DNA of 64,000 nt, from contig JAHBYP010000003.1 of assembly GCA_019635875.1 (NCBI GenBank), positions 310,001-374,000 on the forward strand. The letters are read 5' to 3'. The position numbers were made by a program, and so were the translations under genes. The notes beneath the pieces are model-generated. The model worked only from the letters and a program-made list of their open reading frames with translations, made no database searches and was not told the DNA's origin. The DNA is from Alphaproteobacteria bacterium. GTDB taxonomy: Bacteria; Pseudomonadota; Alphaproteobacteria; Reyranellales; Reyranellaceae. This document shows positions 16,327 through 29,892 of the stretch, piece by piece. Position 1 is the first letter of the stretch; each line of letters begins with the position of its first letter.

Positions 16327-17064
16327 ATGGACGCGCCCGCCCCAGCCGCCACGGACAACGCCGCCGCCTTCGCCAGCCAGCACGACGACGTCTTCGGGCG
16401 CATCGCCTCGCGCTACGACGTGCTGTGCGATCTGTTCAGCCTGGGCATCCATCGCCTGTGGAAGCGGCGCGTCGCGCGGCGTATCGCCGACGAGCCCTGG
16501 ACCATGCTGCTCGACGGCGCCACGGGGACCGGCCACATCATCCTGCAGCTCCTGTCGCATGAAACCACGCAGAACAGGCGCATCGTCGCCTCGGACATCA
16601 GCCAGAAGATGCTGGCGATCGCCCAGCGCCGGCTGGCCGGTCAGCATGATCGTGTCGAGCTGCGCGTGCTGGATGCCGAGAGCATGCCGGCGATCGCCGA
16701 CGCCAGCGTCGATGCCTACTCGATCTCGCTCGGGCTGAAGATCTGCAACCGGCACCGCGCGCTGGAAGAGGCCTTCCGCGTGCTGAAGCCCGGCGGGCGG
16801 CTGATCGCGCTGGAGGCGTCCAACATCCCCTGGGCGCCGCTGCATCGCGCCTACCTGGCCTACATGTCGCTGTGCATGCCGATGCTGGGCTGGCTGGCGA
16901 CCGGCGGCGACGCGTCGGCCTACAAGTACCTGCTCCAGGGCATTCGCGGGTTTCCGTCGGCGGAAGCGCTGGCCCAGGAGATCGGCGGCCACGGCTTCAC
17001 CGACGTGCGGTTCGAGCGCCTGTCTCTGGGTATCATGGCGATCCACACGGGCCGCAAGCCTTAG
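16327..17064 (+). CDS. UbiE/COQ5-like class I SAM methyltransferase
   Basis: A 245-aa methyltransferase. Motif I is a divergent LLDGATGTGHIILQLL, followed by IVASDISQKMLAIAQRR and the post-motif YSISLGLKICNRHRALEE. The C-terminal segment (YKYLLQGIRGFPSAEALAQ ... GIMAIHTGRKP) matches the FP motif and GI-x-A-x-H-x-G tail of UbiE quinone C-methyltransferases. The altered motif I and missing NF(G)IRN box make a paralogue more likely than the housekeeping enzyme, so no symbol is given. Confidence 0.75.
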   Translation: MDAPAPAATDNAAAFASQHDDVFGRIASRYDVLCDLFSLGIHRLWKRRVARRIADEPWTMLLDGATGTGHIILQLLSHETTQNRRIVASDISQKMLAIAQRRLAGQHDRVELRVLDAESMPAIADASVDAYSISLGLKICNRHRALEEAFRVLKPGGRLIALEASNIPWAPLHRAYLAYMSLCMPMLGWLATGGDASAYKYLLQGIRGFPSAEALAQEIGGHGFTDVRFERLSLGIMAIHTGRKP

Positions 17065-17183: not shown

Positions 17184-19448
17184 TTAGGTCAGCTTAGCCC
17201 CGCACTCGTCGGCAGCTGCTTGGACTATGTCCGCGACGTCGCGCAGGAATTGATTGCGCTCAAGCGACGGTGTGAGGTCTGGAATTGGAGCAGCAGGATC
17301 AAAGATCTCCGTTCCAATGATCTCCGCACGCTCAAAGGTCGATCCCTTGCCATGTTTGTTATAAGCAGCCTGCCACTCTTCAACTTTGTTCTTCCACACG
17401 CGGCGGTTTGCGAGAGCGAGCACCCGGCGTGCGATGTTGTCCGCCAGCGCATCCACAATCACTTGTTTCTGATCATCATCAGGCTCGTCTCCGCCCCACT
17501 CGTGAGGACTCTGAAGGAAGACGTACATGCGATCCTGCAACTCTTTCCGCAGGTCAGCCACGGGCTGGAGAGAATCGTAGTGATCCGCCATTCCGGTGGC
17601 GAGCCGCCGACTCAGCGCTTTCACGCGTGTCCAATGCTCCTTGCCAACACCCGGCTTGAATTCAAGACCGAGACGCGCGAACCACGCTGCATGAAAGCTT
17701 TCCGCTGCTGACTTGACGGCCAGCACAAGATTCATCCGGTCATACCGTGGCACCGCTGGCCCGCGCGGAATCGACTTTGTGACTTCCGCAAGGAGTTCAA
17801 ACAGCTTCTCAAGCTGATTGATAGTCCGGGTGCCTGCCTTTGTTGTCTTGGACAGCGGCTTGTCGATGCTCTCCAAGAAGACACGCGCGGCGTCTATGCG
17901 CTTCCGAAGAGCACGCTCTGCGAGAGGACCCAGGTCCTCGCCGATAGCCGAAAGCACATTCTCGGCCGATGCCATGACATGCTGCACCTTCGCACTTGGC
18001 GACGGCAAATTGTCACCCTTGACCTCATCGAAGTGCGTAAAGATCAGGATTTGCTTTGAGGCATTGCCGGAACTCACCAGCTCACGCATTGCTGCGACGG
18101 TCGCGGCCTGCATCGGCTGCATTGCATTGTCGACGACAAGCACTGCGTCAACCTCTTCGATGCGACGGCTAACCGCCGTTGAAACCGAGCCAGTTGTCTT
18201 GGGCGTATGACCGAGCCCCTCACCATCTAGCAGTGCTACCTTCGGCCTCGGCCCCCGCTCTCGCCAACTCGGCATAAACGGACCGGCAACTCGAACGCCA
18301 TTGACCAATGGCGTCAGCAACTGACCAAAGTACTTCGCATAGTTACTTGAGAATCGAGTTACCGCGCGTATGAACGCGGCGCGATCATTGGTCTCCCAAG
18401 ACCACGACAACGGCCACCCTTGCTTCGTGCGATTGACCAGATTGCGATCAAGCAGGTCGAAGCGCTTCTCAATTTCGTCGAAGAGGTCGTCTACGACCTC
18501 GTGGAACTGCTCGTCGTCGCGCGCTGCCTTGTCGAATACCTCTTCGAATAGCTCGTCAACGACGCGTTCGTCAGCTTCGGTTGTCGCGCCCAACTCTTGG
18601 CGCAACGCATCACCATGACGCTGAGCGATCTGCCTCAGCCGCGAAACTGAACTGGCCAGTATCTCATTCGTTTCGTGGAGATCGACAGCCTCGAACGCCT
18701 GTTCTGCGGTAAGCTCTAGCTCCTCGTCATCATCTTCCATCCCATCGAAGTCGGACTTAGTGGACGACGGCCCGTTACCAAGGACATAGCCGAATCGGTA
18801 ACGCTGGTTGACATGATTGAGCATGCGCCGAAGGACTTCTGCATCGGGCGCCTTCCCATATGCGGCGAGGGCAGCGGCCGACGCACATTCGGTAAGGTAT
18901 TCACGAGTTTCCTCGGCGGAAACAAAGGTGACAGCGGCCCTATATGGCCCATCGGCGACAATGATCTCCGTATCGTGGACGGTAGTCTTGGCAGTGGAGG
19001 TCGACGGAAAGCGCTCGGCTTCCGGATCGGTACCGATCAGCTGGCGCGCGAGCGTTGTCTTGCCGGCGCCAGTGGTCCCGAGGAGAAGCGCACGGATGTA
19101 CCCGTCATGCTCGGCGTCGGGAAGGCGGATGATCTTCTCGCGGATAAGGCGAAAGTCCGTCTCCTCCGGTATCAGCTTATAGAAGAAGATCTCGACGACG
19201 CGCTTATCGAACCGCCGCTCGGCCTCTGCACGGGCCGCGGCATTGTGATACGTCGATTCCGCAAGCAATTCGTTGAGGTCTGCCAGAAGGCGCCGTGCCT
19301 CTGATTCGTCTCGCGTTCCGAGGCCCTGTCTGACTCGAACGCCCGGCTTGCCGGTCGCATCATCCGTTCGAACCGGATGACGGAAGATCACCGAGAAACC
19401 GGACCGCCCCTGGCTCTTGCTCAGGCTCGCGGTATAGGCCTTTGCACT
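17184..19448 (-). CDS. large P-loop GTPase with integrase-arm-like N-terminus
   Basis: A 754-aa soluble protein. Residues 1-70 (SGFSVIFRHPVRTD, then RVRQGLGTRDESEARRLLAD) resemble the N-terminal arm/SAM-like DNA-binding region of tyrosine recombinases, but no catalytic recombinase domain follows. Near residue 125 starts a GTPase/ATPase core: P-loop LLLGTTGAGKTT, a possible G3 in LLDGEGLGH, and a G4-like FTHFDE. An acidic insert (GMEDDDEELELTAEQ) precedes long helical segments, and the C-terminal 300 residues look helical as in dynamin-like or AIG1-type proteins. The start is fixed by GGAGG five bases before GTG 19448. It is monocistronic, of visibly lower G+C than its flanks, and next to other accessory genes. 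A mobile-element or defence role is inference; the family was not recognised with certainty. Confidence 0.7.
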   Translation of the reverse strand, partial: SAKAYTASLSKSQGRSGFSVIFRHPVRTDDATGKPGVRVRQGLGTRDESEARRLLADLNELLAESTYHNAAARAEAERRFDKRVVEIFFYKLIPEETDFRLIREKIIRLPDAEHDGYIRALLLGTTGAGKTTLARQLIGTDPEAERFPSTSTAKTTVHDTEIIVADGPYRAAVTFVSAEETREYLTECASAAALAAYGKAPDAEVLRRMLNHVNQRYRFGYVLGNGPSSTKSDFDGMEDDDEELELTAEQAFEAVDLHETNEILASSVSRLRQIAQRHGDALRQELGATTEADERVVDELFEEVFDKAARDDEQFHEVVDDLFDEIEKRFDLLDRNLVNRTKQGWPLSWSWETNDRAAFIRAVTRFSSNYAKYFGQLLTPLVNGVRVAGPFMPSWRERGPRPKVALLDGEGLGHTPKTTGSVSTAVSRRIEEVDAVLVVDNAMQPMQAATVAAMRELVSSGNASKQILIFTHFDEVKGDNLPSPSAKVQHVMASAENVLSAIGEDLGPLAERALRKRIDAARVFLESIDKPLSKTTKAGTRTINQLEKLFELLAEVTKSIPRGPAVPRYDRMNLVLAVKSAAESFHAAWFARLGLEFKPGVGKEHWTRVKALSRRLATGMADHYDSLQPVADLRKELQDRMYVFLQSPHEWGGDEPDDDQKQVIVDALADNIARRVLALANRRVWKNKVEEWQAAYNKHGKGSTFERAEIIGTEIFDPAAPIPDLTPSLERNQFLRDVADIVQAAADECGAKLT

Positions 19449-19460
19449 CACGATTGCCTC

Positions 19461-19540
19461 CGTTGTTCCGTTGTTGTGCCGAAACTTACCTGACAATGCC
19501 GATGCCGGTCAAGTAGATTTGGAACAACATCGGAACAACG
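19461..19540. promoter_or_regulatory. GGAACAAC repeats at the GTPase promoter (putative operator)
   Basis: GGAACAAC occurs at 19521 and 19532, 11 bp apart on the same strand. An inverted copy CGTTGTTCCG (19461-19470) pairs exactly with CGGAACAACG (19531-19540). The cluster spans the leader upstream of GTG 19448. Spacing of one helical turn and symmetry suggest a protein-binding site, possibly for autoregulation by the gene's own DNA-binding-like N-terminus. Confidence 0.45.
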
Positions 19541-19947: not shown

Positions 19948-20597
19948 TCACCCCTTCGCATACGGATTCCTCGGCTTCCGCATCACGATCCTAATCGGCG
20001 TCCCGGCAGATCGAAATCCTCGCGCAGCCGGTTCGCCAGATACCGCTCGTGCGATTCCGGCAGATCCGCCGGCCGGCTCACGAACAGCGCGAAGGTCGAC
20101 GGGCGTGACTTCACCTGCGAGCCGTAGCGCAGCTTGATGCGCCGTCCGTCGACCAGCGGCGGCGGGTTGCGCTCGATCGCCTCGCCGAGCCAGCGACTGA
20201 ACTGCAGCGTCGGTACGCGGCTGTTCCACGCCTTGTGCAGCTTCACCACCGCGGGCATCAGCTTGTCGACGCCGCGGCCGGTGCGCGCGGAGAAGCCGAC
20301 GATGGGGATGCCCCTGACCTGCGCCAACGAGGCCTGCAGGCGGTCGGTGAGCTTCTTCCACTGCTCGTTGCGCGCCTTGTCGGTGGCGCCCAGCAGGTCG
20401 GTCTTGTTGACCGCCAGCACCAGGCTGCGGCCCTCCTCGATGACGTGGCGCGCGATAGTGAGGTCCTGCTTCTCCATCATCTGCTGCGCGTCGAGCACCA
20501 GCACCACGATTTCGGCGTAGCGGATCGCCTCCTCGGTGCCGCGCGCCGACAGCGCCTCCAGCCGCTCGCTGACATTGGTACGACGGCGCAGGCCGGT
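19948..20597 (-). pseudogene. truncated, frameshifted 3' copy of der
   Basis: About 650 bp nearly parallel to the 3' half of the intact der at 22520-23168. The protein text runs from RRRTNVSERLEALSA through LVLDAQQMMEKQDL and NKTDLLGATDKARNEQWKKL. The copy lacks the 5' half, and homology stops abruptly at about 20597. One C is missing in GGCGTCCCGGCAG (intact copy GGCGTCCCCGGCAG), shifting the frame before the C-terminal RIVMRKP-NPYAK segment, which continues in another frame to a stop at 19948. Divergence of roughly a tenth of the bases suggests a fragment from a related strain rather than a fresh duplication. With intact der it forms direct repeats around the 1.9-kb cargo. Confidence 0.88.
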
Positions 20598-20657
20598 GGC
20601 AAGAACCTTGCGCTCCGCTCCTTTTCCCGGCAGGCGGAACGTTTGTATACTGGAGCC

Positions 20658-20879
20658 ATGAACGCCACTCTCCTGCGCGAGATCGGCAAGCTCAGCGTCG
20701 AGGAACGCCGGGCGCTGATCGACGATATCTGGGACAGCATCGAGGCCGAGCAGACCCTGCCGCCGCTCGACGCGGCCCAGGCCGCCCTGCTCGATGAGCG
20801 CCTGAAGGACTCGATCGAGCGACCGGACGAGCAGACCTACACGTCGCAGGAAATCGCCGCGCGCGCTCAGCGACCGTGA
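20658..20879 (+). CDS. addiction module antitoxin component (orphan)
   Basis: A 73-aa acidic protein, MNATLLREIGKLSVEERR, with IDDIWDSIEAEQTLPPL, matching the small 'putative addiction module component' family whose members are usually followed by a RelE/ParE-type toxin gene. No toxin-sized frame follows: 20880-21129 holds only a gene fragment and a promoter-like region. GGAG lies two bases before the ATG and a TATACT hexamer just upstream. It is probably the remaining half of a toxin-antitoxin pair in the der-flanked island. Confidence 0.65.
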   Translation: MNATLLREIGKLSVEERRALIDDIWDSIEAEQTLPPLDAAQAALLDERLKDSIERPDEQTYTSQEIAARAQRP

Positions 20880-21129: not shown

Positions 21130-21729
21130 GTGGCTACCGCGAAATTGCACATCAACCTCACTCAGGGGCTGATCGAGGCCGAAGGTGACGAAACTTTCGT
21201 CCGAGTGGTTTACGACGACTTTAAGGAGCGGCTCAGGGCCCAGCCAGCAAAGCAACAGACGCTGCACGCTGCGAATAAAGAAGGCGAGCAACCGAATGCT
21301 CAGGACACTGCGCGGCGGCCGAAGGCTCGGCGCAGGGCGGCCGCACCGAAGACTTCAACTCGTGGCGAGGCAGAACCCAAAGGCAGTGCCGGCGGCATGA
21401 CTAGTTATGAGCCGCGCCGCTTGCCTGATCTAGACCTTTCACATTTGGCCGACTTCGTTAAGTCGTTCACGTTCAAGGGCAACCCTGAGCGTTATGTGGT
21501 GTACACGCAGTTCCTTAAGGAAAAGCTCCAGATCGAACCGTGCACGATCGACCACCTCTACTCTTGCTTTGACGAAATGAAGGACACACTTCCCACAAAT
21601 ATGGGGCAAAACCTAGTCGACACTCGCTTACGCAATTCGTTCCTGAAGTTTACGACACCGCAAGACATCCAACTCACAGTCACCGGGATCAACCACTATA
21701 ACAAGATGCTTAGGGCAGCAAGTAAGTGA
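21130..21729 (+). CDS. unknown protein A of a two-gene accessory unit
   Basis: 199 aa, unrecognised. Residues 1-35 (KLHINLTQGLIEAEGDETFV, then RVVYDDFKERL) predict two strands and a helix. Residues 36-95 are a basic, low-complexity linker (ARRPKARRRAAAPKT). Residues 110-195 form a helical domain (FKGNPERYVVYTQFLKEKL ... DHLYSCFDEMKDTLP ... LTVTGINHYNKML) that parallels the N-terminal domain of the next protein. The GTG start has GGGGG upstream. The stop overlaps the next GTG (GTGA), so the two are translationally coupled. G+C is visibly below the neighbourhood and codon use is more relaxed. Confidence 0.7.
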   Translation: MATAKLHINLTQGLIEAEGDETFVRVVYDDFKERLRAQPAKQQTLHAANKEGEQPNAQDTARRPKARRRAAAPKTSTRGEAEPKGSAGGMTSYEPRRLPDLDLSHLADFVKSFTFKGNPERYVVYTQFLKEKLQIEPCTIDHLYSCFDEMKDTLPTNMGQNLVDTRLRNSFLKFTTPQDIQLTVTGINHYNKMLRAASK

Positions 21730-22472
21730 GCGCCGACCGCTTTTACGAGTCAATTCCCAAGAGCTATCACGGGCAGGATCGAGGCACCGTCACGTATTTC
21801 GTGTACTATCTCACGGAGGAGAAGGGGCAAAAGGCGGCCACGGCTAAGTCCTTGAAGCAGTGCTTCATGGACTGTCATCTCCCTGTGCCCGGACGGATTG
21901 CGCAGTACCTCTCAGAAGGGCTTACGAGCAACCCTGTCCTCTTCGTTAAGGTTCCAGAAGGGTATCGCCTGGAGCGAAACCGTAGGAGGATCATCGCATC
22001 ATCGCTGGGCGTCCGTAAGGAAGTCGTGCAGACGAGCAGCACGCTTCGCGCGCTTGAGAGCGACATTACCGATCCGCAGACCAAGGACTTCCTTAAGGAA
22101 GCAATCGACTGCTACGAGGCAGGCGCCAACAGAGCGGCTGTCATCATGACGTGGGTACTCGCGTTCGATCACTTCCTGAATTGGCTCTTCTCGAACAAGC
22201 TTACCGAGTTCAATCGGCAACTTGCGGCAAAGGCCGGGATGAGCAAGGCCAAGACCGTTGCTAAGATCGAGGATTTCGAAGAAATAAACGAGGACCACAT
22301 CATTACGACGTGTCGATCGGCAACTATCATCACGGCTGGGGTTCAGAAGACACTTAAGCAGAGCCTCGACATACGAAACTCCGCCGCCCATCCGTCTGAC
22401 GTGAAGATCGGACCAGCTAAGACGGTTGCGACGATTGAGGATCTCGTGGAGAACATCCTCAAAAAGTACTAA
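21726..22472 (+). CDS. unknown protein B with C-terminal HEPN-type domain
   Basis: 248 aa. Residues 1-95 (FYESIPKSYHGQDRGTVTYF, then VYYLTEEKGQ ... LKQCFMDCHLPVP ... VKVPEGYRL) share pattern with the C-terminal domain of the preceding protein. Residues 115-248 are helical (FLKEAIDCYEAGANRAAVIM, then TWVLAFDHFLNWLF) and end with DIRNSAAHPSD. Here R-NSAA-H fits the RX4-6H motif of HEPN ribonucleases or their inactive relatives. HEPN proteins are widespread in toxin-antitoxin and anti-phage systems; RNase activity here is inference. GTG at 21726 overlaps the upstream stop. Confidence 0.7.
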   Translation: MSADRFYESIPKSYHGQDRGTVTYFVYYLTEEKGQKAATAKSLKQCFMDCHLPVPGRIAQYLSEGLTSNPVLFVKVPEGYRLERNRRRIIASSLGVRKEVVQTSSTLRALESDITDPQTKDFLKEAIDCYEAGANRAAVIMTWVLAFDHFLNWLFSNKLTEFNRQLAAKAGMSKAKTVAKIEDFEEINEDHIITTCRSATIITAGVQKTLKQSLDIRNSAAHPSDVKIGPAKTVATIEDLVENILKKY

Positions 22473-22519: not shown

Positions 22520-23935
22520 CTAGCTCTTCGCGTACGGATTCTTCGGCTTGCGCATCACGATCCGGATCGGCGTCCCCGGCAGATCAAAATCCTCGCGCAG
22601 CCTGTTCACCAGATACCGCTCATACGACTCCGGCAGGTCCGCCGGCTTGCTCACGAACAGCGCAAACGTCGGCGGGCGCGACTTCACCTGCGAGCCGTAG
22701 CGCAGCTTGATGCGCCGGCCGTCGACCAGCGGCGGCGGGTTGCGCTCGACCATCTCGCCGAGCCAGCGGTTGAACAGCGGCGTCGGCACGCGGCTGTTCC
22801 ACGCCTTGTGCAGCTTCGCCACGGCGGGCATCAGCTTGTCGACGCCGCGGCCGGTGCGCGCCGAGAAGCCGACGATCGGCAGGCCCTTGACCTGCGCCAG
22901 CGAAGCCTGCAGGCGGTCGGTGAGCTTCTTCCACTGCTCGTTGCGCGCCTTGTCGGTGGCGCCCAGCAGGTCGGTCTTGTTGACCGCCAGCACCAGCCCG
23001 CGGCCCTCCTCGATGACGTGACGCGCGATGGTGAGGTCCTGCTTCTCCATCATCTGCTGCGCGTCGAGCACCAGGATCACGACCTCGGCGAAGCGGATCG
23101 CCTCCTCGGTGCTCTTCGCCGACAGCGCCTCGAGACGCTGGCTGACATTGGCGCGCCGGCGCAGGCCGGCGGTGTCGATCAGGCGGATCGGCCTGCCCTC
23201 GTGCATCCATTCGACCGCGATGGCGTCGCGCGTCGTGCCCGCCTCCGGCCCGGTCAGCACGCGCTCATCGCCCAGCAGGCGGTTCAGCAGGGTCGACTTG
23301 CCGACATTGGGCCGGCCGACGATGGCGAGCTGGATCGGGCGCGACGGGTCGGGGCCGCTGTCCTCGACGTCCTCCGCCGCGTCGTCGGGCGCCTCGTCCT
23401 CGAACGGCGCATCCTCCTCGGGCTGCGGTTCCGGCAGCTTGCCCAGCACGCGGTCGAGCGCATGGGCGATGTCGCCGATGCCGATGCCGTGCTCGGCCGA
23501 GACCGGCACCGGATCGCCCAGGCCCAGCGCATGGGCTTCCGCAATGCCGGGATCGGCGGCGGCGCTCTCGGCCTTGTTGGCGATGACGATGGTCTTGCGC
23601 GCGTGGCGGCGCAGCCACTGGGCGAAGGCGCGATCGAGCGGGGTCAGCCCGGCGCGCGCGTCGATCACGAGGAGCACGGCGTCGGCTTCGCTGACGGCGC
23701 GTTCGCTCTGCTTGCGCATGCCGGCCTCGAGCCGATCGCCCACCGCCTCCTCCCAGCCGGCGGTGTCGGTGAGGACGACCTCGCGGCGGCCGATGGTGGC
23801 GTTGGCTTCACGGCGGTCGCGCGTCGTGCCCGGCTCGTCGGCGACGATCGCCATGCGCCGCCCGGCCAGCCGGTTGAACAAGGTCGACTTGCCGACATTG
23901 GGCCGGCCGACCAGGGCGATGCGGGGGCGGGTCAT
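22520..23935 (-). CDS. der: ribosome biogenesis GTPase Der (EngA)
   Basis: A 471-aa essential double GTPase for 50S assembly. The first G domain has VGRPNVGKSTLFNRL near the N-terminus and DTAGWEE. The second, near residue 205, has GRPNVGKSTLLNRLL, with DTAGLRRRANVS and NKTDLL. The C-terminal KH-like domain ends RKPKNPYAKS. An acidic linker (EPQPEEDAPFEDEAPDD) separates the G domains. It is complete, and its 3' half is duplicated in decayed form at 19948-20597. bamB and the TPR gene lie upstream on the same strand. Confidence 0.96.
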   Translation of the reverse strand: MTRPRIALVGRPNVGKSTLFNRLAGRRMAIVADEPGTTRDRREANATIGRREVVLTDTAGWEEAVGDRLEAGMRKQSERAVSEADAVLLVIDARAGLTPLDRAFAQWLRRHARKTIVIANKAESAAADPGIAEAHALGLGDPVPVSAEHGIGIGDIAHALDRVLGKLPEPQPEEDAPFEDEAPDDAAEDVEDSGPDPSRPIQLAIVGRPNVGKSTLLNRLLGDERVLTGPEAGTTRDAIAVEWMHEGRPIRLIDTAGLRRRANVSQRLEALSAKSTEEAIRFAEVVILVLDAQQMMEKQDLTIARHVIEEGRGLVLAVNKTDLLGATDKARNEQWKKLTDRLQASLAQVKGLPIVGFSARTGRGVDKLMPAVAKLHKAWNSRVPTPLFNRWLGEMVERNPPPLVDGRRIKLRYGSQVKSRPPTFALFVSKPADLPESYERYLVNRLREDFDLPGTPIRIVMRKPKNPYAKS

Positions 23936-28860: not shown

Positions 28861-29028
28861 ACGAAGGGGACGTTTTCTGCAGATCGCAAATCGCGTCTGG
28901 CCCCACGAGCCTCCCCATTCCTCGCGCCACGCCCACCACCTTTCCCGTCAGTCCGGCCGGACAGCGCGTAGAAGTTGACTCGACGGGACGATCTCCTACC
29001 CTGTGGGGAACAATTGGGGGAGGTCAGG

Positions 29029-29892
29029 ATGCCTGTTGGCAAGAAGGCTATTGATCGGATCACGTCGCAGCTGCGGCGCTATCAGTCCGTCGTGAAGGCG
29101 GCCAAGGATCGCGACATCAGCGAGTCGGATACGGCCGTGATCATCGGCGACATCCTCGCGGACGTACTTGGGTACGAGAAGTACGTCGAGATCACTACCG
29201 AGTTCATGATCAGGGGCACCTACGTCGATCTCGCGGTGAAGGTTGGTCGCGATGTCCATTTCCTCGTCGAGGCAAAGGCGATCGGCGTCCCGTTGAAGGA
29301 CGCGCACGTCAAGCAGGCGATCGACTACGGCGCCAACCACGGAATCGAATGGGTCGTGCTTTCCAATGCGACGACCTGGAGGATCTACCGCATCGAGTTC
29401 AAGCAACCGATCGGCAAGACGCTCGTCGCCGAGATCGACCTGCTGACTGCCAACGCCAAGGATCCTCGCGTCATCGAGTGCTTCGCAAACCTCAGCAAGG
29501 AGGGCTTCGCAAAGGGCGGAATGGCTGACTTCTTCGATCAGCAGCAGGCCACCAGCAAGTACTCGATTGCCGCGGCATTGCTCGGTGAAAGGATGATCAA
29601 CCAGTTGCGCCTCGAGCTGCGGCGCTTGTTCCCTGGCGTGAAGGTCGACGAAGAGACTCTGGAGGGGTCGCTCCGCCTCGAGGTCATCAAGCGCGAGCTC
29701 GTCGAGGGTGAGGACGCGGAGGCTGCCGGCGCCCTCTTGAAGCGACTGACGCGCTCGCTCGCTCGGGAGAAGGAACGCTCGTCGAAGGACAGTTCAAAGT
29801 CCGGCGCCGACGCCTCACCGCCGCCGTCGGCGATTGCAGCGGCAGCCAAGGCCGACGGCGAGGTCGCCGCGGCGTCGCCCTCCCCCAAATAG
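29029..29892 (+). CDS. orphan HsdR_N-type (PD-(D/E)XK) protein
   Basis: A 287-aa protein resembling the N-terminal nuclease domain of type I restriction HsdR subunits. The core TYVDLAV ... HFLVEAKAIG gives the D-(X)-E-X-K catalytic pattern (near residues 63 and 77-79). A VLSNATTWRIYRIE segment, typical of these domains, follows. Residues 170-250 are helical and the tail is a low-complexity Ser/Ala/Pro stretch. There is no helicase, HsdM or HsdS nearby. ATG 29029 is preceded by GGGGGAGGTCAGG. Such stand-alone domains are common and may act in defence or DNA maintenance. Confidence 0.7.
   Translation: MPVGKKAIDRITSQLRRYQSVVKAAKDRDISESDTAVIIGDILADVLGYEKYVEITTEFMIRGTYVDLAVKVGRDVHFLVEAKAIGVPLKDAHVKQAIDYGANHGIEWVVLSNATTWRIYRIEFKQPIGKTLVAEIDLLTANAKDPRVIECFANLSKEGFAKGGMADFFDQQQATSKYSIAAALLGERMINQLRLELRRLFPGVKVDEETLEGSLRLEVIKRELVEGEDAEAAGALLKRLTRSLAREKERSSKDSSKSGADASPPPSAIAAAAKADGEVAAASPSPK

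Follow-up and report, generated by a model that had tools for sequence, protein, structure and literature searches.

Bacterial dynamin-like proteins have been studied mostly as membrane machines, and some of them act against phages. For instance, DynA of Bacillus subtilis is presented in PMC8844932 as a dynamin-like membrane fusion protein that delays phage-induced lysis, the Eleos defence is called dynamin-like in PMC11811056, and LeoA, B and C are termed bacterial dynamins in PMC4159319. Searches of open-licence PMC papers listed no dynamin or GTPase carrying an integrase-type or other DNA-binding module that would correspond to the protein described here. Here we report an arm-GTPase of this kind from a window of 64,000 nucleotides, the whole stretch of DNA that was analysed. 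The gene, its motifs and predicted folds, the operator with its link to the arm, and the defence and prophage context are shown computationally. Taken jointly, they may describe a stand-alone, mobile, dynamin-like anti-phage GTPase with its own transcriptional control through an arm placed at its operator, a reading for which we consider belief and doubt evenly balanced. A defence-type GTPase that also controls its own gene is suggested because nearly all arm-bearing relatives have the same repeated sites at the promoter.

The arm-GTPase gene occupies positions 17184..19451 of the minus strand and encodes 755 amino acids, with a GTG start codon at 19451-19449 and a stop codon at 17186-17184, as read from the open reading frame, its start and the homologue alignment. 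The initial annotation had listed a protein of 754 residues at 17184-19448; its reading frame is genuine and lies on the minus strand, but the start codon had been omitted. A Shine-Dalgarno sequence, GGAGG, is found in the upstream sequence at 19457..19461 (minus strand). An alternative upstream TTG start at 19496 was rejected as unlikely because translation from it would run through the downstream operator pair.

The G1 motif or P-loop, GTTGAGKT (residues 125-132; 19056..19079, minus strand), is invariant in 16/16 rows of the relative alignment, as are the threonines T156-T157 (18981..18986, minus strand), which probably represent G2 or switch I. Between G2 and G3, a mostly helical stretch is predicted at residues 200-345 (18417..18854, minus strand); in textbook dynamins, the segment from G2 to G3 is much shorter than this stretch of about 145 residues. 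The G3 motif, of the form D-G-E/Q-G, reads DGEGLGH at residues 409-415 (18207..18227, minus strand), with D409, G410, G412, G414 and H415 invariant. A G4-like THFD follows at residues 472-475 (18027..18038, minus strand); it is invariant, including T472 and D475 of the 16-row alignment, and its assignment to G4 is the probable one. The remaining residues 480-755 (17187..18014, minus strand) form a predicted helical, stalk-like region, over which structural alignments extend to residue 752 with large rmsd. GTTGAGKT, TT, DGxG and THFD are accordingly readable as G1-G4, the names G2-G4 being putative. The P-loop, GTPase-like switch and G4 motifs quoted in the initial annotation were all recovered, and they are invariant across the 16 rows. 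A Pfam AAA_22 match spans the P-loop (E 4.8e-5, under the Pfam cut-off). An AAA-type ATPase was set aside, as this match to the P-loop is below the cut-off and the structural ranking favours dynamins. Additionally, no hydrophobic membrane-anchor segment was found in the protein (highest 19-residue Kyte-Doolittle mean 1.0), and a search of solved structures with its sequence returned nothing below E 0.9.

A full-length AlphaFold2 model, built from the window protein and 14 relatives, reached a mean pLDDT of 74.7 and a pTM of 0.56. Foldseek comparison of this model with the PDB gave no match at E <= 0.001, a bacterial dynamin being ranked first. The top VIA-align match is mitofusin 2 (Z 12.2, rmsd 3.9, 234 residues), followed by chains of other mitofusins, the bacterial dynamin pair, SynDLP, IniA, BDLP, EHD and dynamins. 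Ranks 1-13 are all of dynamin type or EHD (Z 12.2-8.8); EF-Tu comes next at Z 8.6, in a tie with rank 13, and LeoA is also in the list (Z 8.4, rmsd 23.7, 331 residues). Helices are predicted for the stalk, but the comparison there is weak, the whole-chain dynamin alignments having an rmsd of 12-42 A. The core is predicted as a divergent dynamin-superfamily G domain with a putative helical stalk. The earlier proposal of a dynamin-type GTPase agrees with the invariant G1-G4-like motifs and with mitofusin, BDLP, SynDLP, IniA and LeoA as the best structural matches (Z 12.2-8.4), at a level where Foldseek lists nothing with E <= 0.001.

Ahead of this core stands an arm-like, putative DNA-binding domain (residues 1-64; 19260..19451, minus strand), delimited by the model and a profile match, with strands at residues 8-12, 19-29 and 36-43 and a helix at 49-64. 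When residues 1-95 were modelled alone, a beta-beta-beta-alpha fold followed by two more helices was obtained (pLDDT 83). The motif FRHPxR is invariant in 14/14 aligned arms, and the whole arm is missing from four Rhodococcus relatives in the homologue alignment. Pfam DUF6538 matches are weak (3/14 members, best E 0.0086). A profile of 22 GTPase arms was therefore compared by hhalign with 13 arms of DUF6538 proteins from related genomes, which we take to be integrases. The match has a probability of 50 and a pairwise P of 1.6e-4, and in it the W-V-F-HP and LGT-D-EA parts fall at corresponding positions. Its score of 26.7 was not reached by any of 200 column permutations, and reversing the profile lowered it to 11.0. 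The arm model had no Foldseek match in the PDB at E <= 0.001, and PDB fold searches yielded no integrase arm among the matches listed, an absence that is uninformative; the AP2 domain of WRINKLED1 on DNA appeared as a weak match (Z 3.8, rmsd 4.2, 75 residues). Among the 50 viral fold matches listed, four are named integrases, all weak. Furthermore, a profile scan found Arm-DNA-bind_3 in the integrases that adjoin relatives at loci L002 and L013. Descent of the N-terminal arm from an integrase arm is likely, not proved. The integrase-arm-like N-terminus suggested by the initial annotation is moderately supported by the strand-strand-strand-helix model, the profile probability of 50 and the 0/200 permutations, but not by any PDB integrase arm among the matches listed. 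Its remark that no recombinase core follows holds for the NCBIfam, Pfam and PHROGs matches of the window protein, none of which is a core profile; a recombinase with a lost core was rejected on this ground.

The upstream DNA was compared among relatives, and a common layout emerged, consisting of two GTTGTTC half-sites, a TTGAC (-35) and two GAACAAC half-sites just 5' of the start codon. In the window, all on the minus strand, the upstream pair GTTGTTC-CGAT-GTTGTTC with 11 bp spacing is located at 19522..19539, the -35 box TTGACC at 19507..19512 with a poor -10, GGTAAG, at 19490-19485, and the downstream pair GCACAAC-AACG-GAACAAC, in opposite orientation, at 19462..19479. Four such 7-bp half-sites surround a sigma-70-like promoter at 22/23 arm-bearing loci. 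The operator was scored as the best four-half-site match over 28 positions, with identical spacing demanded in both pairs, against 200 dinucleotide-shuffled versions of the upstream DNA in question. Twenty-two of the 23 arm-bearing loci matched at 21-28 of the 28 positions, above all 200 shuffles, and none of the four armless Rhodococcus loci rose above its shuffles (Fisher p 2.8e-4 for the association of arm and operator, a value that ignores the relatedness of the loci). The exception is L014, which has paired sites with the upstream pair reversed, and the weakest pass is L007, with degenerate sites (21/28). TTGAC is likewise present at 22/23 arm-bearing loci. The half-sites of a pair are spaced at 11 bp in the clade of the window (the window, L001, L002, L004, L023 and L024) and at 10 bp in the remaining 16 loci. 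The operator count omits the near-copies L012, L031, L034, L035 and L038, the plasmid match H5, L036 (which begins within the gene), the fragments L016, L017 and L018, the distant L020/L021, and H11 (at a record end); the near-copies L028/L029 and L030/L032 were retained. The start was shifted to the ATG at 374 for L001, and for L010 to its upstream gene. At this Azospirillum locus, the operator, which has one additional half-site (a third) on its downstream side, precedes a DUF4258 gene that is itself 5' of the GTPase in a two-gene unit, and no sites occur within 160 bp of the GTPase's own start. The operator there sits at the first gene of the unit and not at the GTPase frame, indicating that it follows the promoter.

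Across the 2.9 million contigs of IMG/VR, the strict operator pattern hit 12 contigs, all of which (12/12) encode the GTPase, and a looser pattern with 11-bp spacing hit four, two of them with the GTPase. The DNA pattern alone hence recovered 14/16 GTPase contigs, missing L036, which ends before the promoter, and L027, which has an altered half-site. In the two viral contigs without a GTPase near the looser-pattern site, L053 (10306-10384) and L055 (545-625), GTTGTTC repeats lie between a VirE-like helicase gene and the small nuclease-like gene that follows it, the gene order being the same in both contigs; these sites are read as chance or as phage repeats beside the helicase gene. In its own 6.2-Mb genome, the exact upstream pair occurs once, at the arm-GTPase gene, a backwards control pattern also occurring once. 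Over the 424,296 bases of 29 loci, exact pairs are confined to arm-GTPase promoters, and an exact-pair search of the own genome and of these loci revealed no further operator-controlled gene. DNA tethering of the arm-GTPase is indirectly but strongly supported by this operator, which tracks the arm. The 23 arm-bearing loci are mutually related, and the tree places the armless Rhodococcus proteins beside the window's clade (the L021 row being unreliable); as the armless loci come from one genus, the tie between arm and operator rests on about one evolutionary change. Two small genes lie 5' of the armless Rhodococcus GTPases (L008 6503-7902, L011 4513-5762), the pair in L008 having no match in Pfam or PADLOC profiles. 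They might replace the role of the arm.

Relatives of the arm-GTPase are rare, being found in 2/75 genomes of the family, 6/385 of the class and 4/398 of the phylum, where each count includes the own genome and a few of the hits are short or degenerate. Relatives of full length, sharing 37-73% identity, are present in Alphaproteobacteria, on a betaproteobacterial plasmid (Caballeronia) and on IMG/VR contigs, and armless ones in Rhodococcus. Eleven plasmid records carry a relative, five of them from Rhodococcus, as do 16 IMG/VR loci, which were found by an alignment-based scan after a single-protein scan of viral contigs had matched none. No relative was matched in the phage-record collection. 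In the window, the gene is flanked on one side by a ubiE-like methyltransferase gene (16327-17064; Ubie_methyltran E 1.1e-50) and on the other by a 644-bp remnant of the GTPase gene der, 91% identical to the intact der on its right. This duplicate of the 3' part of der (19954-20596 and 22526-23169) has small accessory genes between its copies and resembles the outcome of an element's insertion at the 3' end of der. The ubiE-der interval measures about 5.5 kb in the window and about 1.2 kb and 4.1 kb in two congeners, with other genes; its contents differ between congeners and it is therefore a variable slot, consistent with the accessory setting noted at the outset. Some further genes of the window were also noted. 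Two overlapping plus-strand genes (21130-21729 and 21726-22472), the second with weak HEPN/DUF4145 and PD-T7-3-like matches (PADLOC E 3.6e-6), might be a small gene pair of the defence or toxin-antitoxin type. An addiction-module antitoxin-like frame lies at 20607-20879 (Unstab_antitox, E 7.3e-9), with a similar frame in the same slot of the congener L095, and a stand-alone 305-residue protein with a type I restriction HSDR_N-like domain is encoded at 28975-29892.

At several other loci, the gene has defence genes as neighbours. A complete type I RM system is present in L001, an HKD+Snf2 helicase with a tyrosine integrase in L002, a type I REase in L024, a CBASS cyclase with a phospholipase in L005, DISARM DrmD in L098, and a Thoeris ThsB TIR protein with an REase in L101; by annotation, BrxL (BREX) occurs in L009 and a type I RM system in L011. 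In the L028 prophage, the GTPase gene is inserted on the opposite strand between the tail terminator gene and those for tail assembly, minor tail and tape-measure proteins, and head or packaging genes lie nearby in L025, L033 and L037. Some neighbourhoods are not defence-like, such as those with Bradyrhizobium oxidases or Rhizobium regulators, so that a defence-island or prophage accessory position is seen at several loci, not all. Clustering of reading frames over the 29 loci revealed no neighbour common to all; clusters that span many loci consist of prophage genes or of frames located within the GTPase gene. With no gene besides the GTPase shared by the 29 loci, the homologues do not belong to one described multi-gene system, a finding that the initial annotation had named as one that would refute its reading had it been otherwise.

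A working mechanism may be outlined. The arm, of the type that tyrosine recombinases use on tandem arm-type sites, would bind the two half-site pairs that bracket the promoter and would repress it, keeping expression of the arm-GTPase low. The G domain with its helical stalk would be the effector, powered by nucleotide and probably oligomerising. During infection, this effector would be started by an altered nucleotide state or by assembly on a phage trigger, and the same event, if coupled to the GTP cycle, would pull the arm off the operator and release a burst of synthesis. The effector would then protect against the phage. In its fullest form, a dynamin-family GTPase that has captured an arm would serve as a DNA-anchored sensor-effector, resting on its own operator until infection-triggered, nucleotide-driven assembly releases it; a single polypeptide would then combine the roles of repressor, sensor and effector. 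Arm and operator are absent together. We hold this form of the proposal tentatively, doubt slightly outweighing belief.

Several other explanations should be weighed against these proposals. The arm may solely autoregulate, with the effector acting at the membrane, as DynA does, or elsewhere, and DNA taking no part in sensing or action. The armless Rhodococcus relatives speak for this, as they retain the whole GTPase without the operator; the core seems functional without DNA tethering, the effector would work without the arm, and autoregulation may be the arm's whole role. DynA, which according to PMC8844932 delays lysis at the membrane, is a further precedent. A membrane effector is harder to reconcile with the lack of a hydrophobic segment (highest 19-residue Kyte-Doolittle mean 1.0) or of any sign of a membrane-binding tip. 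On balance, an arm confined to autoregulation is possible, and we rather doubt it. A different question, concerning origin and not function, is whether the likeness to integrase arms is a coincidence and the arm a small basic beta-sheet domain from another DNA-binding family, e.g. of plant-type AP2. WRINKLED1 is among the weak matches and the integrase-arm profile probability is just 50, but the profile match has the same motifs in register and beats 200/200 permuted profiles, which leaves such an origin unlikely.

The operator itself could be owned by a host regulator, with the N-terminal domain serving otherwise, e.g. in protein-protein contact. The weak fold matches of the arm would fit this, whereas the operator is found at the GTPase gene across distant hosts, prophages and plasmids, nowhere else in the own genome or the fetched loci, and not where the arm is absent, so that ownership by the host appears very unlikely. 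The GTPase might also be a plasmid or prophage maintenance factor, with tandem sites that act as a centromere or for silencing and a nucleotide switch that drives partition or lysogeny control. Partition loci have clustered sites flanking a promoter, which the present sites resemble, and relatives are carried by 11 plasmid records and many viral contigs. Against this, relatives are also chromosomal, including that in the small accessory slot of the window, they occur in defence islands and within a prophage tail module, and each locus has one operator and no second partner gene. We regard a maintenance role as the most improbable of these explanations.

A mobile defence gene needs self-limitation on entering a new host. 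If the proposed autoregulated anti-phage GTPase is real, it would show how a recombinase-type arm with an operator of its own can make an immune GTPase self-limiting with neither antitoxin nor separate regulator; should the GTP cycle also be coupled to DNA release, bacterial immunity would gain a one-protein switch. As the half-sites are predicted together with their spacing and positions, these ideas are readily and cheaply testable, and the armless relatives provide natural controls.

Compared with tyrosine recombinase arms (DUF6538, Arm-DNA-bind_3), the arm-GTPase shares the strand-strand-strand-helix order, the LGT-D-EA motif and direct-repeat sites; it differs in having no recombinase core downstream of the arm and in that its sites flank a promoter instead of an attachment site. 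With mitofusin 2, BDLP, SynDLP, IniA and LeoA it has in common a predicted G domain that aligns over 217-276 residues in the G-domain matches (Z 9.4-12.2, rmsd 3.9-5.1), and its C-terminal half is predicted to be helical, as in the dynamin superfamily. Unlike that superfamily, it carries about 145 mostly helical residues from G2 to G3, its G4 is a TxxD that reads THFD, it bears a DNA-binding-type arm, and it is without a hydrophobic membrane segment. The weak match to MADS mad8 in PADLOC (residues 120-300, E 1.6e-4) may rest on the P-loop alone, and the other three window proteins scanned have no MADS match. In the distant, armless L021 (286-3210), from a genome of the phylum, one chain joins the GTPase with an AAA_21 ATPase of AriA/PtuA-like type, which the window protein lacks. 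Like the Eleos system, for which PMC11811056 uses the term dynamin-like, and LeoA-LeoBC, it is a dynamin-like GTPase of defence islands with LeoA in its structural list. It is a single gene and not a LeoA/LeoBC pair, its own LeoBC profile match having an E of 0.012 and the 29 loci sharing no partner. DynA too is a bacterial dynamin-like protein and acts against phages, but it fuses membranes, as described in PMC8844932, whereas the arm-GTPase has a DNA-binding-type arm and an operator.
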